DNA of 64,000 nucleotides from Desulfatibacillum alkenivorans DSM 16219 (GCF_900142135.1 NZ_FQZU01000020.1:1-64000); one strand, 5' to 3'. Positions 52,271 through 59,608 are shown, counted from the first letter of the stretch. Translations and numbers: made by a program. The notes: generated from the sequence alone by a model not told the origin.

Positions 52271-52879
52271 GTGGGCCGAGACAGAAAAAGCAATGAAGAA
52301 AGAAGAAAGGCCACGCGCCAGAAGATTGTCCAGGCGACCCTGGACCTGTGCGCAGAGCGGGGGTATCACATGGTTTCCCCAAAGGATATATCCCAGGAAG
52401 CCGGGGTTTCCGTAGGCATCCTGTACCATTATTTCAAGAACAAGAAGGAGATCGCCGTTCATCTTATAGAGACCCTGGGCGCCGCTTTGGTGGAGGAAGT
52501 GGAAAAAGGCTTTTACCACGCTCCCACCTACAAGGAGAGCGTAAAGCAGGGTTACGGCATGTTGTTTGATTACGTGGAGCAAAACAAAGCCGGCTTCACG
52601 GCCATGATTCGGGAAATCGGCAACGAGGAGTTGAAGGAGCATATAGACGGGCTGATCGACAGGTTGGTTCTGGATTCGGCCCGGAGAATCGGCGAGCAGC
52701 AGGATCTGGGGATTTTGCGTAAGGACGTGCATGGGGAAATTGCCGCGGCTTTGATTCAGGACATGGCCTTTTCGGCGGTCAGGATGTATTTGGAGGGCCG
52801 CTTTTCCTGCAAGGACATTCTGGATGTATTAATCAAGATTCAGGTGCAGGGTTTGGAGGATCGGCAGGCGCTTGGCTAA
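52271..52879 (+). CDS. TetR-family transcriptional regulator
   Basis: A 202-residue regulator beginning at GTG 52271. The helix-turn-helix reads SPKDISQEAGVSVGILYHYF. The C-terminal ligand domain is helical (DYVEQNKAGFTAMIREIG). It is divergent to the TPP-enzyme/SDR operon and probably controls it through the operator at 52171-52186. Its stop overlaps the convergent histidine-kinase gene by four bases. Confidence 0.88.
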   Translation: MGRDRKSNEERRKATRQKIVQATLDLCAERGYHMVSPKDISQEAGVSVGILYHYFKNKKEIAVHLIETLGAALVEEVEKGFYHAPTYKESVKQGYGMLFDYVEQNKAGFTAMIREIGNEELKEHIDGLIDRLVLDSARRIGEQQDLGILRKDVHGEIAAALIQDMAFSAVRMYLEGRFSCKDILDVLIKIQVQGLEDRQALG

Positions 52880-55800
52880 TTGACTCCGGAAGAGCTCAAG
52901 GCGTGCGCCGAGGGAGGCTTCAGGGGAAGTCGAATGATGAACCGGGCGCCCTGGCCGGGTTTTGAGTCCACGGACATGGCGCCGCCGTGGTCTTCCGTAA
53001 TGATGAAGTAGGAGACGGACAGGCCGAGGCCGGTGCCTGCGCCCACGTTTTTTGTGGTGAAGAAGGGTTCAAAAACCCTTTTTCTTGTTTTTTCATTCAT
53101 GCCGGGGCCGTTGTCCTCCACTTCAATGCGGACCATGCGGCTTTGCTGGGCCGTCCTCAGCGTGATCGCGGGGGCGGCGTTGCTTGGGTCTTCAGCCATG
53201 GCGTAGGCGGCGTTGCGCAACAGGTTTAGAACAACCTGCTGAATTTTGCTGGCCTGGCACCAGGCTTCGGGATTGGACGAATCGTACTCCCTGACAATTT
53301 TAATCCGCTTGAAGTCGAATTTCTTTTTCAGGTCGTAATCGCTGGAAGCCAGTTCCACGGTCTTTTCCAGGATTTCGTTAATGGGCTGCACGGCCCCGTC
53401 CGCTTCGCTTTTTCTGCTGAAGCTAAGCATGTTGGCCACAATCTGGCCCGCCCTCACCCCGGAGCTATGGATGGAATCGATCATCCGCACCAGATTGCGT
53501 TTTTCCATATAACTGCGGATAACGTCCATGGTGACGCCGCATTCTTCCGCCGCCTGCTGGTTTTTCGGCGTTAGTTCAATGGTTCTGTTTTTCAGGACCT
53601 GGGCGTTTTGAATAATGCCGGCTAAAGGGTTGTTGATTTCATGCGCCATGCCGGCGGCAAGGCCTCCCACGGAAAGCATTTTTTCGGACTGAATCATCAT
53701 CTCTTCGATGCGGACGCGATCGGTTACATCGTCTACGCGGATGACCGCGCCCTGGATTCCGTTTGCTACAAGCGGAAAAACCGTCACATCGGAATAGCGC
53801 ACCTCGCCCTCCACCTGGCCGGTGGGTATACGGGCTTCCGTTTTAGGGGCTCTTTGGGCTATGGCCTGCCGAACCTTGCCCATTTCACGGGCCAATTGGG
53901 GGAACACATCCATGAGAAGCCGGTTTTGGGCCTGCTCTGCGCTGATGCCGGTGACCCTTTCGGCCTCCATGTTCCATTGGGTGACCTTTCCCTCCAGATC
54001 CACTCCAACAAGCACGGAAGGCATGGAGTTTACAATATTGGCCAGGAGGTTCCGCAAACGCCTGACTTCTTCCTGCGCTTTCTCCTGCTCCCGCATGTCG
54101 CTCAGCATCAGCAGCAAATGGGGCTTTTCCTCCATGACAAAGGGAACCAACTGGGCGTCCATTATAAACTTTTTTCCGAAAGTGGAGACGCCGATCATGG
54201 TGTGGCGCATAGGAATTCTATCCTTCACCACTTTTAAAGCCACCTGGTACAGGCCGGTCTCTTTCCAGGACGCGATTTTGTGGTAATTCAAAGACAGCAC
54301 TTGCTCCAGAGAGGCGCCCACCAGATCGGCCGCGGCCTGATTGGCGGTAATGCACTGTCCGCCGGGGTCGTACAAAAGGATTCCAACAGGAGATTCATAG
54401 ACAATTTTCTCATTAAAAGCCAAGGCGTTGGCCAGCTTCCTTTCATTAGCCTTTTGCTCGGTCAAATCAATGATAATGCCGCGAAACCCGGCGGGAGCCC
54501 CGTTTTTGATGACACGGGAGGAATGGATCATGATAGGCGCCCGGTCCCCGTTTTTCTTTATGGCCGCGTACTCCTGCCCGCCGATATACTCCCCGGACAA
54601 AACTCTTTGTATATTTGCTGCGGCCCGCTCTCTGTCTTCCGGCGCCAAAAAGTTCAAGGCTTGAACTCCGGAATTGGCCTCCTCCTGGGCGTACCCCAAA
54701 ACCTGGCTGACATTTTTATTGATGAAGGTCAGTGTGCCGTCCAAGTCAGCCTCAAAAACAATTTGCGGCAGGGAGTCGGCAAGGTCGCGGAATCGCTCCT
54801 CACTGGAGCGCAAAGCCCGCTCCGTTTTCCGTTGTTGTTCAATCTGCTGCTGCAGGTTTCTGATCAAGGCCCTCAACTGACTGGTCATGCTGTTGAACGC
54901 GTTGGCCAGAACGCTGATTTCATCATCGCCCTCAATGGCGACGACAGAGTCCAGGTCGCCATTGGAAATGGCATTGGCGTTGGCGCTCAACTTGTTGATG
55001 GCCCGTATGGGGCGCTTCATGGCCAAAAATATCAGGACGATGTTCGCCAGGACGCCCACAAGAATCAATCCGGCCAGATAGTATTCCATGAGCCGAAGTG
55101 GAGCAAAAGCCTCTTTGGCGGGCAGTTCCACGACAACCGCCCATTTCGTCCCCGGAATGGACGTGTATTCCCCGACCACTCTCTCTCCGTCCAGTCCGTG
55201 GTAAACGGGCTCCGGGCCTTGCGTATATTGGAGGAGTCCCAAATAGTTGGCCACGGGAGGAAAAGAACTGAGGTCCCGTCCGTGCTGCTCCAGTATTCGA
55301 GCCGGGTTCTGGTGAGCCACCAGGCGCCCCTTGGAGTTTACAATATAGGCGTATCCTGTCCCGCCAATCTCAACCTGGGAAATCTCCTGCCAAAGCCGGG
55401 CGGCGTTCAAATCCCCCAGCAAAATGTTCTTCACTTTCCCATTGATGGATTTAAGGGGGATGGCTATGGGAATGGACAAACGGCCGCTGCCTTTGGATTC
55501 GTGAAAGGAACCGATATACGCATCTCCGGTTTTCACCGCCCCGAACATCTCCGTTCTGGAAAGATCGCCCAGTTCATCATGCAAGTAGGTGTAGGTCTTG
55601 GAGACCTTGACGATTTCCAGCCCCTCGCTGTCCAGGAGCGTCAGCTCGTTAAAGGCCCCGGGCCGGTTTATCAGGATGTATTCCAGGGCGCGTTTTTGCT
55701 GTTGACGATCTATTTCACGGAGGGAAACCAGATCCGCATAAAAAAACAAATTGGAGACGGCATCCTCCACGTGCTCGGAAATCAGCCTGGCAACCTCTTT

Positions 55801-55986
55801 GGCATTGCGCATCTGCAATTCCCGGATAAGGCGCTTCTGGTTGTCCTGGGCTATATAAACCAGCCCCGCTCCCATGGCTACCATGGTTATCGCCATGGCC
55901 AGAGAGAGCGCCCATCCCAGTTTGGTCCCGAGCCGTTTATGCCAGGGGATGGTCCGGGATGTTGTTTGGCTTTGGAATGTCACCAA
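52876..55986 (-). CDS. Cache-HAMP-PAS sensor histidine kinase
   Basis: A 1036-residue membrane kinase starting at TTG 55986 (or GTG 55983), after GGAGAAGGGGAG. A membrane segment (LSLAMAITMVAMGAGLVYIA near residue 28) is followed by a periplasmic double Cache domain, a second membrane segment (AGLILVGVLANIVLIFL near 315), HAMP, and three PAS domains (about 400-520, 530-650, 660-775). HEINNPLAGI near 780 holds the phosphorylated histidine, and DNGPGMNEKTRKRVFEPFFT with GTGLGLSV forms the ATP-binding part. No receiver domain or response regulator is adjacent. It follows two paralogous binding proteins on the same strand. Confidence 0.9.
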   Translation of the reverse strand: MVTFQSQTTSRTIPWHKRLGTKLGWALSLAMAITMVAMGAGLVYIAQDNQKRLIRELQMRNAKEVARLISEHVEDAVSNLFFYADLVSLREIDRQQQKRALEYILINRPGAFNELTLLDSEGLEIVKVSKTYTYLHDELGDLSRTEMFGAVKTGDAYIGSFHESKGSGRLSIPIAIPLKSINGKVKNILLGDLNAARLWQEISQVEIGGTGYAYIVNSKGRLVAHQNPARILEQHGRDLSSFPPVANYLGLLQYTQGPEPVYHGLDGERVVGEYTSIPGTKWAVVVELPAKEAFAPLRLMEYYLAGLILVGVLANIVLIFLAMKRPIRAINKLSANANAISNGDLDSVVAIEGDDEISVLANAFNSMTSQLRALIRNLQQQIEQQRKTERALRSSEERFRDLADSLPQIVFEADLDGTLTFINKNVSQVLGYAQEEANSGVQALNFLAPEDRERAAANIQRVLSGEYIGGQEYAAIKKNGDRAPIMIHSSRVIKNGAPAGFRGIIIDLTEQKANERKLANALAFNEKIVYESPVGILLYDPGGQCITANQAAADLVGASLEQVLSLNYHKIASWKETGLYQVALKVVKDRIPMRHTMIGVSTFGKKFIMDAQLVPFVMEEKPHLLLMLSDMREQEKAQEEVRRLRNLLANIVNSMPSVLVGVDLEGKVTQWNMEAERVTGISAEQAQNRLLMDVFPQLAREMGKVRQAIAQRAPKTEARIPTGQVEGEVRYSDVTVFPLVANGIQGAVIRVDDVTDRVRIEEMMIQSEKMLSVGGLAAGMAHEINNPLAGIIQNAQVLKNRTIELTPKNQQAAEECGVTMDVIRSYMEKRNLVRMIDSIHSSGVRAGQIVANMLSFSRKSEADGAVQPINEILEKTVELASSDYDLKKKFDFKRIKIVREYDSSNPEAWCQASKIQQVVLNLLRNAAYAMAEDPSNAAPAITLRTAQQSRMVRIEVEDNGPGMNEKTRKRVFEPFFTTKNVGAGTGLGLSVSYFIITEDHGGAMSVDSKPGQGARFIIRLPLKPPSAHALSSSGVN

Positions 55987-56005
55987 GAGGCTCCCCTTCT
56001 CCTTT

Positions 56006-57289
56006 TCAATTAGCGCCTTCTTTGGGGCGCCCGCCCCCGTCCGCCCCTGAAAAAGCCGTCCAGTCTATCACCTCGGCCTGGGCAAAATTCTCCGGCCATA
56101 CAGGAATGCGCCGCCCCTGGATTATTTGCAGGATAAGCAAATTGTAGTAGATGTTTTGACCGGTCGAATCAAAGGATAGGCGAGGGGCCGGAAGGATCAT
56201 GTTTTCGCCGAAGGGCATGTCCGTTTCGGATAGGGCCTTTCTTAAGCGTTTTTTATTAAGGGACCCGGCCCGTTCCAAGGCGTCTTGGAGAACAAAAATG
56301 CACTGATAAGCCAAAATGCCGTCTCCCGTCAGGTCCCTGTGATAACGTTCGGAAAAGGCCTCATAAATGTTTCGGCCTTCAGGCAGAAACTCGGAGTGCT
56401 CCGTCAATGTGAAAAAGCCGTTCGCGTCCGGTCCAAGAGCTTTTATGAATTGATTGGAAACCATGCCGCCCGCAGCGCCTATCACTGGAATGTCCGCCCC
56501 TGCCTGCCTTAGGGCTTTAGCGATAAGAATACTGTCGTCAATGTAGGCTGCCGTCAAAATCGCATCCGGTTTCGCCGCAAGAACCTTTGCAACAATGGGG
56601 GTCATGTCCTTGACTGAATCATAACGATAGCTTTCCTCCGCCGCCAGAATCACGCCGGCGTTTTGCAAGGCCCGCTTTTGGGCCAGAGCCGACGAGGTGC
56701 CGTAGGCGGAATTTTCATGAATTAAAGCCGCCCTACGAACAGAATAGCCAATGAGCCTGTTCAGGTCCAGCAGAAAACGGACCTGATCCCTTCCGTAGTA
56801 TCGGGCTTTGGGGCTTATGCGGAAAGTATACAAAAACCCCCTTTCGGTCAGGCTGTCGGCAATGCCCGAACTCAGCAATACAGGCGTTTCCAATCTTTCG
56901 GCCGCCTCCGTAACCCTCTGGCCCACATTGCTGTGGTACACTCCGATGACGGCGCACACGCCCTCCTGGGTTATGAGCCTCTCCGCCTCCCTGGCGCCGA
57001 TCCGGGGGTCGCTCCGGGTGTCTCCGTACACCAGTTCCAGAGTGCATCCTCCCAAGGATTGCACGCCTCCGGCTGCATTTATCTTTTCCGCCGCATAGGC
57101 GGCCGCATCGCGGCATACGATCCCTGTCTCGGCGGAGGGGCCGGTAAGGGGAAAAAGAACTCCCACCCGCGCCCTTGCAGGAAGCGGGGATTGGAGGTCA
57201 CGAAAAAGCAATGCCGACATACATGCCGCGAAAACCCCGACAACCAGAATCCATGCTAAATGCCATTTCGCCTTTTGCCTGAATTGCAT
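56006..57289 (-). CDS. branched-chain-type periplasmic binding protein, paralogue 2
   Basis: A 427-residue protein with an N-terminal membrane anchor or signal (LAWILVVGVFAACMSALLF). I choose ATG 57289, preceded by AAAGGAG. The Peripla_BP_6 fold shows RVGVLFPLTGPSAETG, then AAYAAEKINAAGGVQ, then ELVYGDTRSDPRIGA. It is closely related to the next protein in order and motifs. It ends 20 bp before the kinase gene, so all three genes form one transcript. There are no liv-type permease genes, which argues for a sensory role. Confidence 0.85.
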   Translation of the reverse strand: MQFRQKAKWHLAWILVVGVFAACMSALLFRDLQSPLPARARVGVLFPLTGPSAETGIVCRDAAAYAAEKINAAGGVQSLGGCTLELVYGDTRSDPRIGAREAERLITQEGVCAVIGVYHSNVGQRVTEAAERLETPVLLSSGIADSLTERGFLYTFRISPKARYYGRDQVRFLLDLNRLIGYSVRRAALIHENSAYGTSSALAQKRALQNAGVILAAEESYRYDSVKDMTPIVAKVLAAKPDAILTAAYIDDSILIAKALRQAGADIPVIGAAGGMVSNQFIKALGPDANGFFTLTEHSEFLPEGRNIYEAFSERYHRDLTGDGILAYQCIFVLQDALERAGSLNKKRLRKALSETDMPFGENMILPAPRLSFDSTGQNIYYNLLILQIIQGRRIPVWPENFAQAEVIDWTAFSGADGGGRPKEGAN

Positions 57290-57305
57290 AATAATCAAAA
57301 CTCCT

Positions 57306-58565
57306 TTAGTGAACGCCGCCCGGCGTCTCCTCGCTGCTTGTAAAAAAGAGGCTCCTTCCCTTCCACCGTACTCCCAGCAGGGTATATTCCGGCGGCCAGA
57401 CAGGCGCCGTCTCGCCATCCTGCACCTGTACGACAAAGGAGCCCGAGTGGGCGGCCTGCCCGCTGGGTTCAAAAAAGAGCGCCGGGGCTGATAGGATCAT
57501 GTCAGGTCCGGGGAGCATATAAGTCGCGGCCAGGGCGTCCCGAATTTGCTTCTTGTCGGCTGTTCCGATTCGCTCCAGGGCGTCCTTGATAACCCAAACG
57601 CTTTGATAGGCCAATGCGCATTCTCCGGGCAATTCCTTGTGGAATCGGGCCTTAAACTCCTGATTGATCTCCCTGGCGTACGGGGCCAGCTTGGAGTAAT
57701 CCGTCATGCCGAAATATTTTTCCACGGCAGGCCCCAGTTCCTCGACAAATTGGCGGGAAATCATTGTAGCCCCCATGTTGACAAGGGGGATGTCCATCCC
57801 GCTCGCCTCCATGGCCCGGGCGGCCAACAGGCTGTCGTGGTCGTACATGGCCGTCAGGATGGCGTCCGGTTTGGCGTCCAGCGCCTTTTCGACCTCCTGG
57901 GTCATATCAACGACCCCGGCGGCGCGGTAGCTCACTTCCCCGGCAATTTCCAGGTCCGTGCTTGTCAGGTGCTTTTTCAGGGCAAAGGCGCATGCAGTGC
58001 CATAGGCCGTGTTTTCGTACAGCAGCGCCGTTTTGTGTAAGGAACGGTTTGTCAAGCGGGAAAAATCCAAGAGAAATGACACCATATCGCGGCCGAAATG
58101 CTCCGCCTTCGCCATAAGCCTGAAGGTGTATTGGAATCCTCGATCCGTAATGATGTCAGCCATGCCCGAGCTTATAATTATGGGCGCGCCCAGCCTCTCG
58201 CAAACCTTGGCCGCCGCCTCGGCCGCGCTGCTTTGATAGGCTCCTATAATGACCAAAACCCCTTCTTCACTAATCAGGCGTTCGGCCTCCCGGGCGGCTA
58301 TCAGGCTTTGCCCCCGGGTGTCGCCGTAAACCAACTCCAGGGGCTGCCCGCCCATGGACCGGACGCCTCCGCCGGAGTTTATCTTTTCAACGGCCAGGCG
58401 AATGGCCTGAAGATTGGAAAGCCCCGCCTCTTCCAGGGAGCCGCTCATGGGAAAAAGCACGCCGATTCGCAAGGGGTTTTCTACAACATTTTTCCGATTG
58501 CACGCCAGCGGCTGAAATAAAAGCATGACGACGACGAACGCACAAAATCTTTGGAATCCGGTCAT
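57306..58565 (-). CDS. branched-chain-type periplasmic binding lipoprotein, paralogue 1
   Basis: A 419-residue protein. I choose ATG 58565, preceded by GGAAGGAG. The signal ends with a lipobox-like PLAC (VVMLLFQPLACNRK). The Peripla_BP_6 region has RIGVLFPMSGSLEEAG, then RLAVEKINSGGGVRSMGG and ELVYGDTRGQSLIAAREAERL. It shares with paralogue 2 most motifs in the same order. The gap to paralogue 2 is 16 bp. A regulatory pair with the histidine kinase downstream is likely. Confidence 0.85.
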   Translation of the reverse strand: MTGFQRFCAFVVVMLLFQPLACNRKNVVENPLRIGVLFPMSGSLEEAGLSNLQAIRLAVEKINSGGGVRSMGGQPLELVYGDTRGQSLIAAREAERLISEEGVLVIIGAYQSSAAEAAAKVCERLGAPIIISSGMADIITDRGFQYTFRLMAKAEHFGRDMVSFLLDFSRLTNRSLHKTALLYENTAYGTACAFALKKHLTSTDLEIAGEVSYRAAGVVDMTQEVEKALDAKPDAILTAMYDHDSLLAARAMEASGMDIPLVNMGATMISRQFVEELGPAVEKYFGMTDYSKLAPYAREINQEFKARFHKELPGECALAYQSVWVIKDALERIGTADKKQIRDALAATYMLPGPDMILSAPALFFEPSGQAAHSGSFVVQVQDGETAPVWPPEYTLLGVRWKGRSLFFTSSEETPGGVH

Positions 58566-58786
58566 GGGTTCACTCCTTCCGCCTTTTGAGTCAGGCCCTT
58601 TGGGTGCAGTATGAATTATGCAAAATGCATGCACAATCAGACTGAGACGCCGCCAGGGAAAGCGCGAGGGCCTTTTCAGGGATTGCGTTTTTGAGGTGGA
58701 TACGCTGTTGATTTTCCGGCTGTTTTGGGTAATGTTGTTTTGTTTCCAGTCAGAGGGAGACCTTACCACATAACGGAGGTTTATAC

Positions 58787-59608
58787 ATGACCGTATACAA
58801 AGAGCAAGTGGAACAGGCGGCGGCCTGGATCCGGGAGCGATTCGGCCGCGCCCCGGCTTTTGGATTCATCTTCGGGACGGGCCTTGGGGCCAGCGTGCAA
58901 ACCCTGAAAGTGGAGACAAGCCTGGACTACGCCGACATTCCGAATTTTCCCGTGTCCACGGTCCAGAGCCATGAGGGGCGCCTTTTATGCGGGACCGCGG
59001 GGGACCAGGCCTTTGTCGCCCTCCAGGGGCGTTTCCACTTGTATGAAGGATATTCCGCCAAGCAAATCACCTTTCCCATCCGGGTCATGCAGGAGCTTGG
59101 GGTGAAAACCCTGATATTCGCCAGTGCGGTGGGCGGCCTCAATCCGGAATTCACTCCCGGAGACATAATGATTGTGGAGGACCACATCAATCTGTCGGGG
59201 GAAAACCCCTTAGTGGGCGAAAATGTCGACTCCTGGGGGGTTCGCTTTCCCGAAATGTTTGAGGCCTATGATAACGGGCTTATCCAAAAAGCGCAAAGCG
59301 CTTCGGAAAAGCTGGACATTCCGTTGCGCCGGGGAGTCTACGTGGGTTTGAAGGGCCCCTCTTTGGAAACCCCCGCGGAAATGCGCTTTTTACGCGCCAT
59401 CGGAGCGGACGCCGTGGGTCTTTCCACCGTCAACGAGGTGATAGCCGCAGTGCACGGAGGCATGAAAGTCCTGGGCTTTGCCATCATCACCAACGTCAAT
59501 GTGCCCGGCATGCTCACCCCGGCATCCATTGATGAAATCGTAGCCGTGGCGGACGCCGCCTCCCCCCGGGTGGGGGCGATAATCAACCGGGTCCTGCAAA
59601 ATCTCTAG
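58787..59608 (+). CDS. purine nucleoside phosphorylase
   Basis: A 273-residue enzyme of the trimeric PNP type. FIFGTGLGASVQTL near residue 25 binds phosphate; GRFHLYEGYSAKQITFP near 84, GLKGPSLETPAEMRFL near 188 and GLSTVNEVIAAVHGGM near 208 are family signatures. The base-contacting residue after the last is Asn in FAIITN, as in enzymes that use 6-oxopurines such as hypoxanthine and guanine. GGAGG precedes ATG 58787. It lies 35 bp before a deaminase gene, which would supply a 6-oxopurine nucleoside. Confidence 0.88.
   Translation: MTVYKEQVEQAAAWIRERFGRAPAFGFIFGTGLGASVQTLKVETSLDYADIPNFPVSTVQSHEGRLLCGTAGDQAFVALQGRFHLYEGYSAKQITFPIRVMQELGVKTLIFASAVGGLNPEFTPGDIMIVEDHINLSGENPLVGENVDSWGVRFPEMFEAYDNGLIQKAQSASEKLDIPLRRGVYVGLKGPSLETPAEMRFLRAIGADAVGLSTVNEVIAAVHGGMKVLGFAIITNVNVPGMLTPASIDEIVAVADAASPRVGAIINRVLQNL

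Follow-up and report, generated by a model that had tools for sequence, protein, structure and literature searches.

A 64,000-nt stretch of the genome of the sulfate-reducing bacterium Desulfatibacillum alkenivorans DSM 16219 (GCF_900142135.1, NZ_FQZU01000020.1:1-64000; referred to as the window) carries a tandem minus-strand trio of genes that encode two substrate-binding proteins, SBP1 and SBP2, and a sensor histidine kinase, in that order. With a probability of roughly 0.77, the trio forms a stand-alone chemical sensor in the style of LuxPQ and TorTS, in which ligand-loaded substrate-binding proteins (SBPs) would dock on the kinase's periplasmic dCache domain and thereby switch the activity of the kinase. 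The observations behind this reading are the gene order, the domains of the products, the clade-wide linkage of SBP and dCache genes, a surplus of binding proteins over transporters, a duplication within the lineage and the divergence of SBP1.

SBP1 (57306-58565, 419 aa) starts at an ATG within a longer, GTG-opened frame and is followed by SBP2 (56006-57289, 427 aa, ATG start); both are Peripla_BP_6 binding proteins. The kinase gene (52876-55986, 1036 aa) starts with TTG or, alternatively, with GTG at position 55983, and its product is devoid of a receiver domain. The genes are separated by gaps of 16 bp (57305-57290, SBP1-SBP2) and 19 bp (56005-55987, SBP2-kinase), and no transporter gene adjoins the trio, whose neighbours encode a TetR protein and a PNP/MTAP-type phosphorylase. 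A first-pass annotation of this DNA had described the three genes, their spacing and the lack of a transporter, all of which were confirmed by open reading frames and Pfam profiles.

The same annotation had assigned a Cache domain and PAS domains to the kinase. Pfam profiles bore this out and yielded the architecture TM-dCache_1-TM-HAMP-PAS3-HisKA-HATPase_c (TM, transmembrane segment), with all parts encoded on the minus strand. The periplasmic dCache_1 domain (residues 49-287; 55126-55842) is flanked by two hydrophobic membrane segments (about residues 25-46 and 303-324), which were read off the sequence. It is followed by a HAMP domain (residues 327-373; 54868-55008), three PAS repeats (residues 393-759; 53710-54810) and an AtoS/NtrB-like core (residues 775-1023; 52918-53664) composed of HisKA (775-860) and HATPase_c (912-1023). 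The core is intact, with an H-box (HEINNP), an N box and a G box. The model of the Cache region (predicted local distance difference test score, pLDDT, 84) adopted a dCache fold, with Z scores of 19.1 to KinD and 18.1 to PctA. PDB entry 5ere (Dret_0059), whose dCache part was matched, was a candidate for a natural fusion of SBP and dCache and was dropped after no sequence match to SBP2 was found.

The association of binding protein and dCache domain extends well beyond the window. A scan of genome contigs with the SBP sequence alone yielded 37 loci of two kinds. The clade containing the window proteins was defined by the tree, not by an identity cut-off; it comprises the closest loci (SBP identity of at least 37%), save for the transporter-linked locus L088 (38%), and is separate from transporter SBPs (100/99). 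A dCache receptor gene lies directly downstream of the SBP gene in 12 of the 12 clade loci, window included, at distances of a few to 67 bp or with overlapping frames. Among the 25 scan loci outside the clade, none has a dCache receptor of the clade type beside the SBP gene, and 23 adjoin LivHM permeases. When 395 genomes of the phylum were searched with a profile, only three clade members, all already known, scored above 600 bits; the next approximately 22 SBP genes (270-366 bits) include none beside a dCache receptor and at least 17 beside LivHM permeases. The co-occurrence analysis recommended in the first-pass annotation was thus carried out and revealed complete linkage within the clade as opposed to 0 of about 45 cases outside it. 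Chance neighbourhood was ruled out by the recurrence of the linkage in 12 loci.

The clade, with members in Thermodesulfobacteriota, Myxococcota and other groups, includes two Desulfatibacillum loci (window, L061), metagenome-assembled genomes (MAGs) of Deltaproteobacteria/Myxococcota (L080, L082), a Desulfosudis-like MAG (L081/L062), Desulfocarbo indianensis (L085), MAGs of Myxococcota (L086), Spirochaetes (L084) and Methanomicrobiales (L083), two Methanospirillum loci (L089, L090) and a short contig labelled Bacteroidetes (L087). The SBP-dCache pair of the latter (MWDJ01000093.1, 4.8 kb) groups with Methanospirillum, and the contig is possibly of archaeal origin and misbinned. Locus L061, from a second Desulfatibacillum genome (G109), retains the trio together with its neighbouring genes, with identities to the window of 79% for the kinase core, 61% for the Cache domain and 56% for the SBPs. 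At five further loci (L146, L147, L149, L152 and L153), a more distant kinase whose dCache domain is related directly adjoins a complete SBP-LivHM transporter operon, an arrangement that could possibly reflect an evolutionary half-way state. No publication on this SBP-dCache family was found in a literature search from which subscription journals were mostly absent.

Because the cytoplasmic halves of the receptors differ, the conserved sensing unit is, as judged by sequence comparison, the binding protein together with the dCache domain. The output consists of three PAS repeats and a kinase in the window, of PAS or GAF, kinase and receiver domains in L062, L080, L082, L084, L085 and L086, and of PAS and HATPase in the Methanospirillum receptors, in which HisKA was undetected. 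The kinase core of the window is 45-61% identical to those of 13 kinases of its own genome (a family of 14) and only 33-39% identical to the cores of SBP-dCache receptors outside Desulfatibacillum, which indicates that the output was exchanged while SBP and dCache stayed together. The identity matrices of SBP and Cache were correlated across 12 pairs (r 0.75-0.77, permutation p 0.0002). For the seven pairs with a comparable kinase core, L061 being dropped, the values were 0.91 for SBP-Cache, 0.82 for SBP-kinase and 0.67 for Cache-kinase. The SBP-Cache correlation supports a contact between the two, short of proof.

Within the core family of 14, an SBP module accompanies four kinases. On contig C88 of the same genome (about 78.7-82.1 kb; L078:5721-9143), a kinase gene whose product has the same core (59%) and no dCache domain is preceded, at a distance of 48 bp, by an orphan Peripla_BP_6 gene; the SBP that the latter encodes keeps a canonical STNP motif. 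NMT1-type binding proteins accompany two same-core kinases on contig C26 (L251:12760-15866 and L255:5274-7598): one is encoded by a separate gene 59 bp upstream of its kinase, and the other is present as an N-terminal fusion.

The Peripla_BP_6 profile spans the full length of SBP1 (E 5.6e-50) and SBP2 (E 1.8e-52), which are 47% identical across 371 aa. The SBP2 model (pLDDT 85) adopted the type I periplasmic binding protein fold, and its closest solved structure was SAR11_0655 with L-pyroglutamate (8wch; Z 45.5, root-mean-square deviation 3.0, 377 residues; profile E 2.8e-76), so that fold and family profile together place the proteins among the Peripla_BP_6 binding proteins. SBP1 begins with a signal peptide and a lipobox-like site (PLAC/N), SBP2 with a hydrophobic anchor and the sequence FAAC/M; a helix modelled at residues 2-32 suggests that SBP2 may keep an uncleaved anchor. 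In a pattern test, lipobox-like sites were detected in 11-12 of 13 complete clade SBPs versus about one transporter SBP of the same genome, which fits the expectation for tethered partners. In the tree, the four Desulfatibacillum SBPs group together (100/99), with the SBP1 orthologues and the SBP2 orthologues forming pairs of their own (100/99 and 99/97); the duplication therefore occurred within the lineage, before the split of the two species. The paralogy of the two proteins, previously proposed, is thus supported by identity, family and tree.

Of the positions with at least 85% conservation, 25 are altered relative to the clade in both SBP1 orthologues and nine in those of SBP2. The changes in SBP1 extend to loop 271-275, the counterpart of the Asp/Glu226 region in alignments with LivJ-type proteins, where DTAGG became N[MT]G[AS]T; SBP2 retains the clade-typical AGG ligand-loop motif. 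By these comparisons SBP1 is the derived copy of the duplication, and since its loop is altered and the AGG motif of SBP2 is kept, the two proteins likely differ in ligand. The notion of two ligands put forward in the first-pass annotation is made plausible by this divergence. In branched-chain and other alpha-amino-acid SBPs, Ser79, Thr102 and Asp/Glu226 (LivJ numbering) serve as ligand anchors. The serine aligned to Ser79 is invariant in the clade (S120), the Thr102 position (143) is occupied by I, M or L in 13 of 13 SBPs, and the Asp/Glu226 position (274) by G, A or S, which sets these proteins apart from the alpha-amino-acid binders. Since both equivalents are lost clade-wide, a classical alpha-amino acid is an unlikely ligand; a reasonable guess would be a carboxylate lacking a charged amine. 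The amino-acid ligands implied by the screens that had been proposed earlier found no support, in either the SBP anchors or the Cache motif described below.

The affiliation of SBP1 and SBP2 with the Peripla_BP_6/HAAT family would also fit orphan binding proteins that serve a LivHMGF transporter encoded elsewhere, with the proximity of the kinase being incidental or a matter of co-regulation, and several SBPs can indeed share one transporter: L235:3251-7112 contains three tandem Peripla_BP_6 genes after LivG/LivF-like genes, probably providing several substrate inputs for a single transporter. The genome (6.47 Mb in 102 contigs, rated 100% complete) makes this very improbable. It contains 20 Peripla_BP_6 matches and 30 LivH/LivM-type permease matches, i.e. 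15 pairs, and by their coordinates all 15 pairs have a binding-protein gene of their own within about 4 kb. After pairing, SBP1, SBP2, the orphan on contig 88, an LpoA-type TPR-PBP6 protein and one weak partial match were left. As every LivHM pair is already served, SBP1 and SBP2 are surplus to the transporters, and the livHMGF system whose use of these proteins would have contradicted the first-pass annotation did not emerge; a missing partner transporter was ruled out by the genome-wide counts of permeases and SBPs. With no adjacent permease, the proteins do not appear to be HAAT/Liv transporter components, and their placement in a separate, dCache-linked clade whose SBP genes adjoin no permease and whose proteins have tethered-type N-termini points the same way. 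As a control within the genome, the window kinase is the only one among the dCache_1 hits with a Peripla_BP_6 gene within 5 kb. The functional link between the SBPs and the kinase, as suggested at the outset, is thus well supported by conservation across phyla, co-inheritance of SBP and dCache, and the finding that no LivHM pair lacks a binding protein of its own.

Two further explanations concern the division of labour within the trio. The dCache domain could sense a ligand of its own, with the SBPs only concentrating or handing over the ligand or adding an independent input instead of acting as the switch. The fold appears intact in the model, its structural neighbours directly bind amino acids, pyruvate or dicarboxylates, and the clade-specific conserved Cache residues G122, E124, E138, G168 and S171 would suit a pocket or a docking face equally well. 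A profile alignment with PctA, in whose amino-acid motif D146 is also counted, showed that R126, W128, Y129 and D146 are missing at the aligned positions of the kinase Cache; Y144 and an acidic residue at the position of D173 are partly kept. The domain thus falls outside the dCache_1AA amino-acid sensors, whose motif in PctA comprises R126, W128, Y129, Y144 and D173 (PMC10104139). A self-sufficient Cache domain would, moreover, need no SBP gene alongside it in every locus, which renders this explanation unlikely. The other explanation, which is limited to the pair and could hold alongside SBP-driven sensing, regards SBP1 and SBP2 as redundant proteins for the same ligand, duplicated for the sake of dose or affinity tuning. 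Their identity, shared family and common origin within the genus leave it a possibility, albeit a somewhat doubtful one, given that both copies have been kept in both species since before the split and that SBP1 changed far more conserved positions than SBP2, loop 271-275 included.

Several points weigh against a sensor switched by docked SBPs. The contact between SBP and dCache is deduced, and the kinase's own Cache domain might be sufficient alone. The correlation of SBP and Cache identities partly reflects common descent (r between SBP and kinase core 0.44, or 0.82 without L061), the lipobox of SBP2 is weak, and the clade is rare (three of the 395 phylum genomes above 600 bits), with several of its members being MAGs. 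A receiver-domain profile detected no response regulator near the kinase or elsewhere in the window. A neighbouring regulator is likewise missing for most kinases with closely paralogous cores, and the cognate protein is presumably encoded elsewhere. In the Desulfosudis-like relative, a gene for an HD-GYP response regulator (L062:3337-4419) directly follows that of the SBP-dCache hybrid kinase, whose output may be cyclic di-GMP turnover.

In the proposed sensor, SBP1 and SBP2 would be exported and tethered to the membrane without feeding a transporter. Each would bind a small extracellular ligand and close around it, and the closed protein would then dock on the periplasmic dCache domain. Docking is envisaged to alter the HAMP/PAS/HisKA relay and, as a consequence, kinase autophosphorylation, in a direction that could be either up or down. 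With the ancestral loop motif in SBP2 and a changed one in SBP1, the kinase would probably read two ligands or ligand ranges, and different lineages would have joined SBP and dCache to different kinase outputs. A more speculative and rather unlikely extension is a portable module of lipoprotein SBP and dCache with varied outputs across bacteria and archaea, of which Desulfatibacillum duplicated the SBP so that two proteins with different ligands compete for one dCache kinase, whose output would reflect two compounds or the ratio between them.

The divergent intergenic region upstream of SBP1 (58566-58786, minus strand) contains TTGTGCATGCATTTTGCAT, which is partly conserved in the sister species. 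The element common to both species, TTGTGCA..AT.TTGCAT (window, about 58605-58635; L061, about 9850), weakly resembles a sigma-54 -24/-12 promoter with TG replacing GG and may act as such; promoter and terminator scans yielded no more than scans of shuffled sequence. On the far side of this region, the PNP/MTAP-type phosphorylase gene (58787-59608) is oriented divergently from SBP1. At the other end of the trio, the TetR gene (52271-52879) is convergent with the kinase gene and overlaps its end by 4 bp. No match to a defence system was obtained with PADLOC, and none of the NCBIfam equivalogs reached its cut-off.

About ten SBP-stimulated sensor kinases have been characterised (PMC9602780). The trio shows what would be expected of such a system, namely an SBP gene adjoining a kinase gene without a transporter, a periplasmic domain combined with an intact core, and co-inheritance of the two partners (12 of 12 loci, r 0.75-0.77). 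As in LuxP-LuxQ, a periplasmic SBP is encoded together with a kinase whose periplasmic domain is double-Cache-like, and sensing would proceed without a transporter; LuxP is single and soluble, in contrast to the two tethered Peripla_BP_6 paralogues and the dCache_1 kinase described here. LuxP and LuxQ belong to other Pfam families, and the trio lies outside the LuxPQ family proper, its proteins matching dCache_1 and Peripla_BP_6 and no LuxP/LuxQ family. LuxQ was not among the fold matches listed, which carries no weight either way. TorT-TorS, XylFII-LytS and BctC-BctE comprise other SBP families and sensor domains, and BctC also serves a transporter. In these systems the ligand-loaded SBP activates the sensor kinase (PMC9602780), and the same may apply here by analogy; the Cache domain of LuxQ is listed as binding no ligand (PMC8694187).

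The SBPs of HAAT/Liv systems (LivJ, Atu2422, SAR11_0655) share fold and Pfam family with SBP1 and SBP2, which differ from them in having no transporter, replaced Thr102 and Asp/Glu226 equivalents and a lipobox-like anchor. The sensor domains of PctA, Mlp24/37 and KinD have the same dCache fold (Z about 17-19), whereas the window-type domain has no amino-acid motif and an SBP gene always upstream. In the autoinducer-2 chemotaxis of Helicobacter, the binding proteins AibA and AibB are both reported to act on one receptor, TlpB, as two SBPs would in the window; TlpB is a chemoreceptor, and AibA and AibB are not known to be paralogues or to be encoded with it, unlike the kinase and the paralogous SBPs encoded alongside it. 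As a compact, transporter-free family with co-inherited SBP and dCache, represented also in the cultured Methanospirillum stamsii and Desulfocarbo indianensis, the clade allows two questions to be put directly to the test: whether a dCache domain devoid of the known amino-acid motif can act as a platform for docking, and in what way a single kinase reads two sister SBPs.

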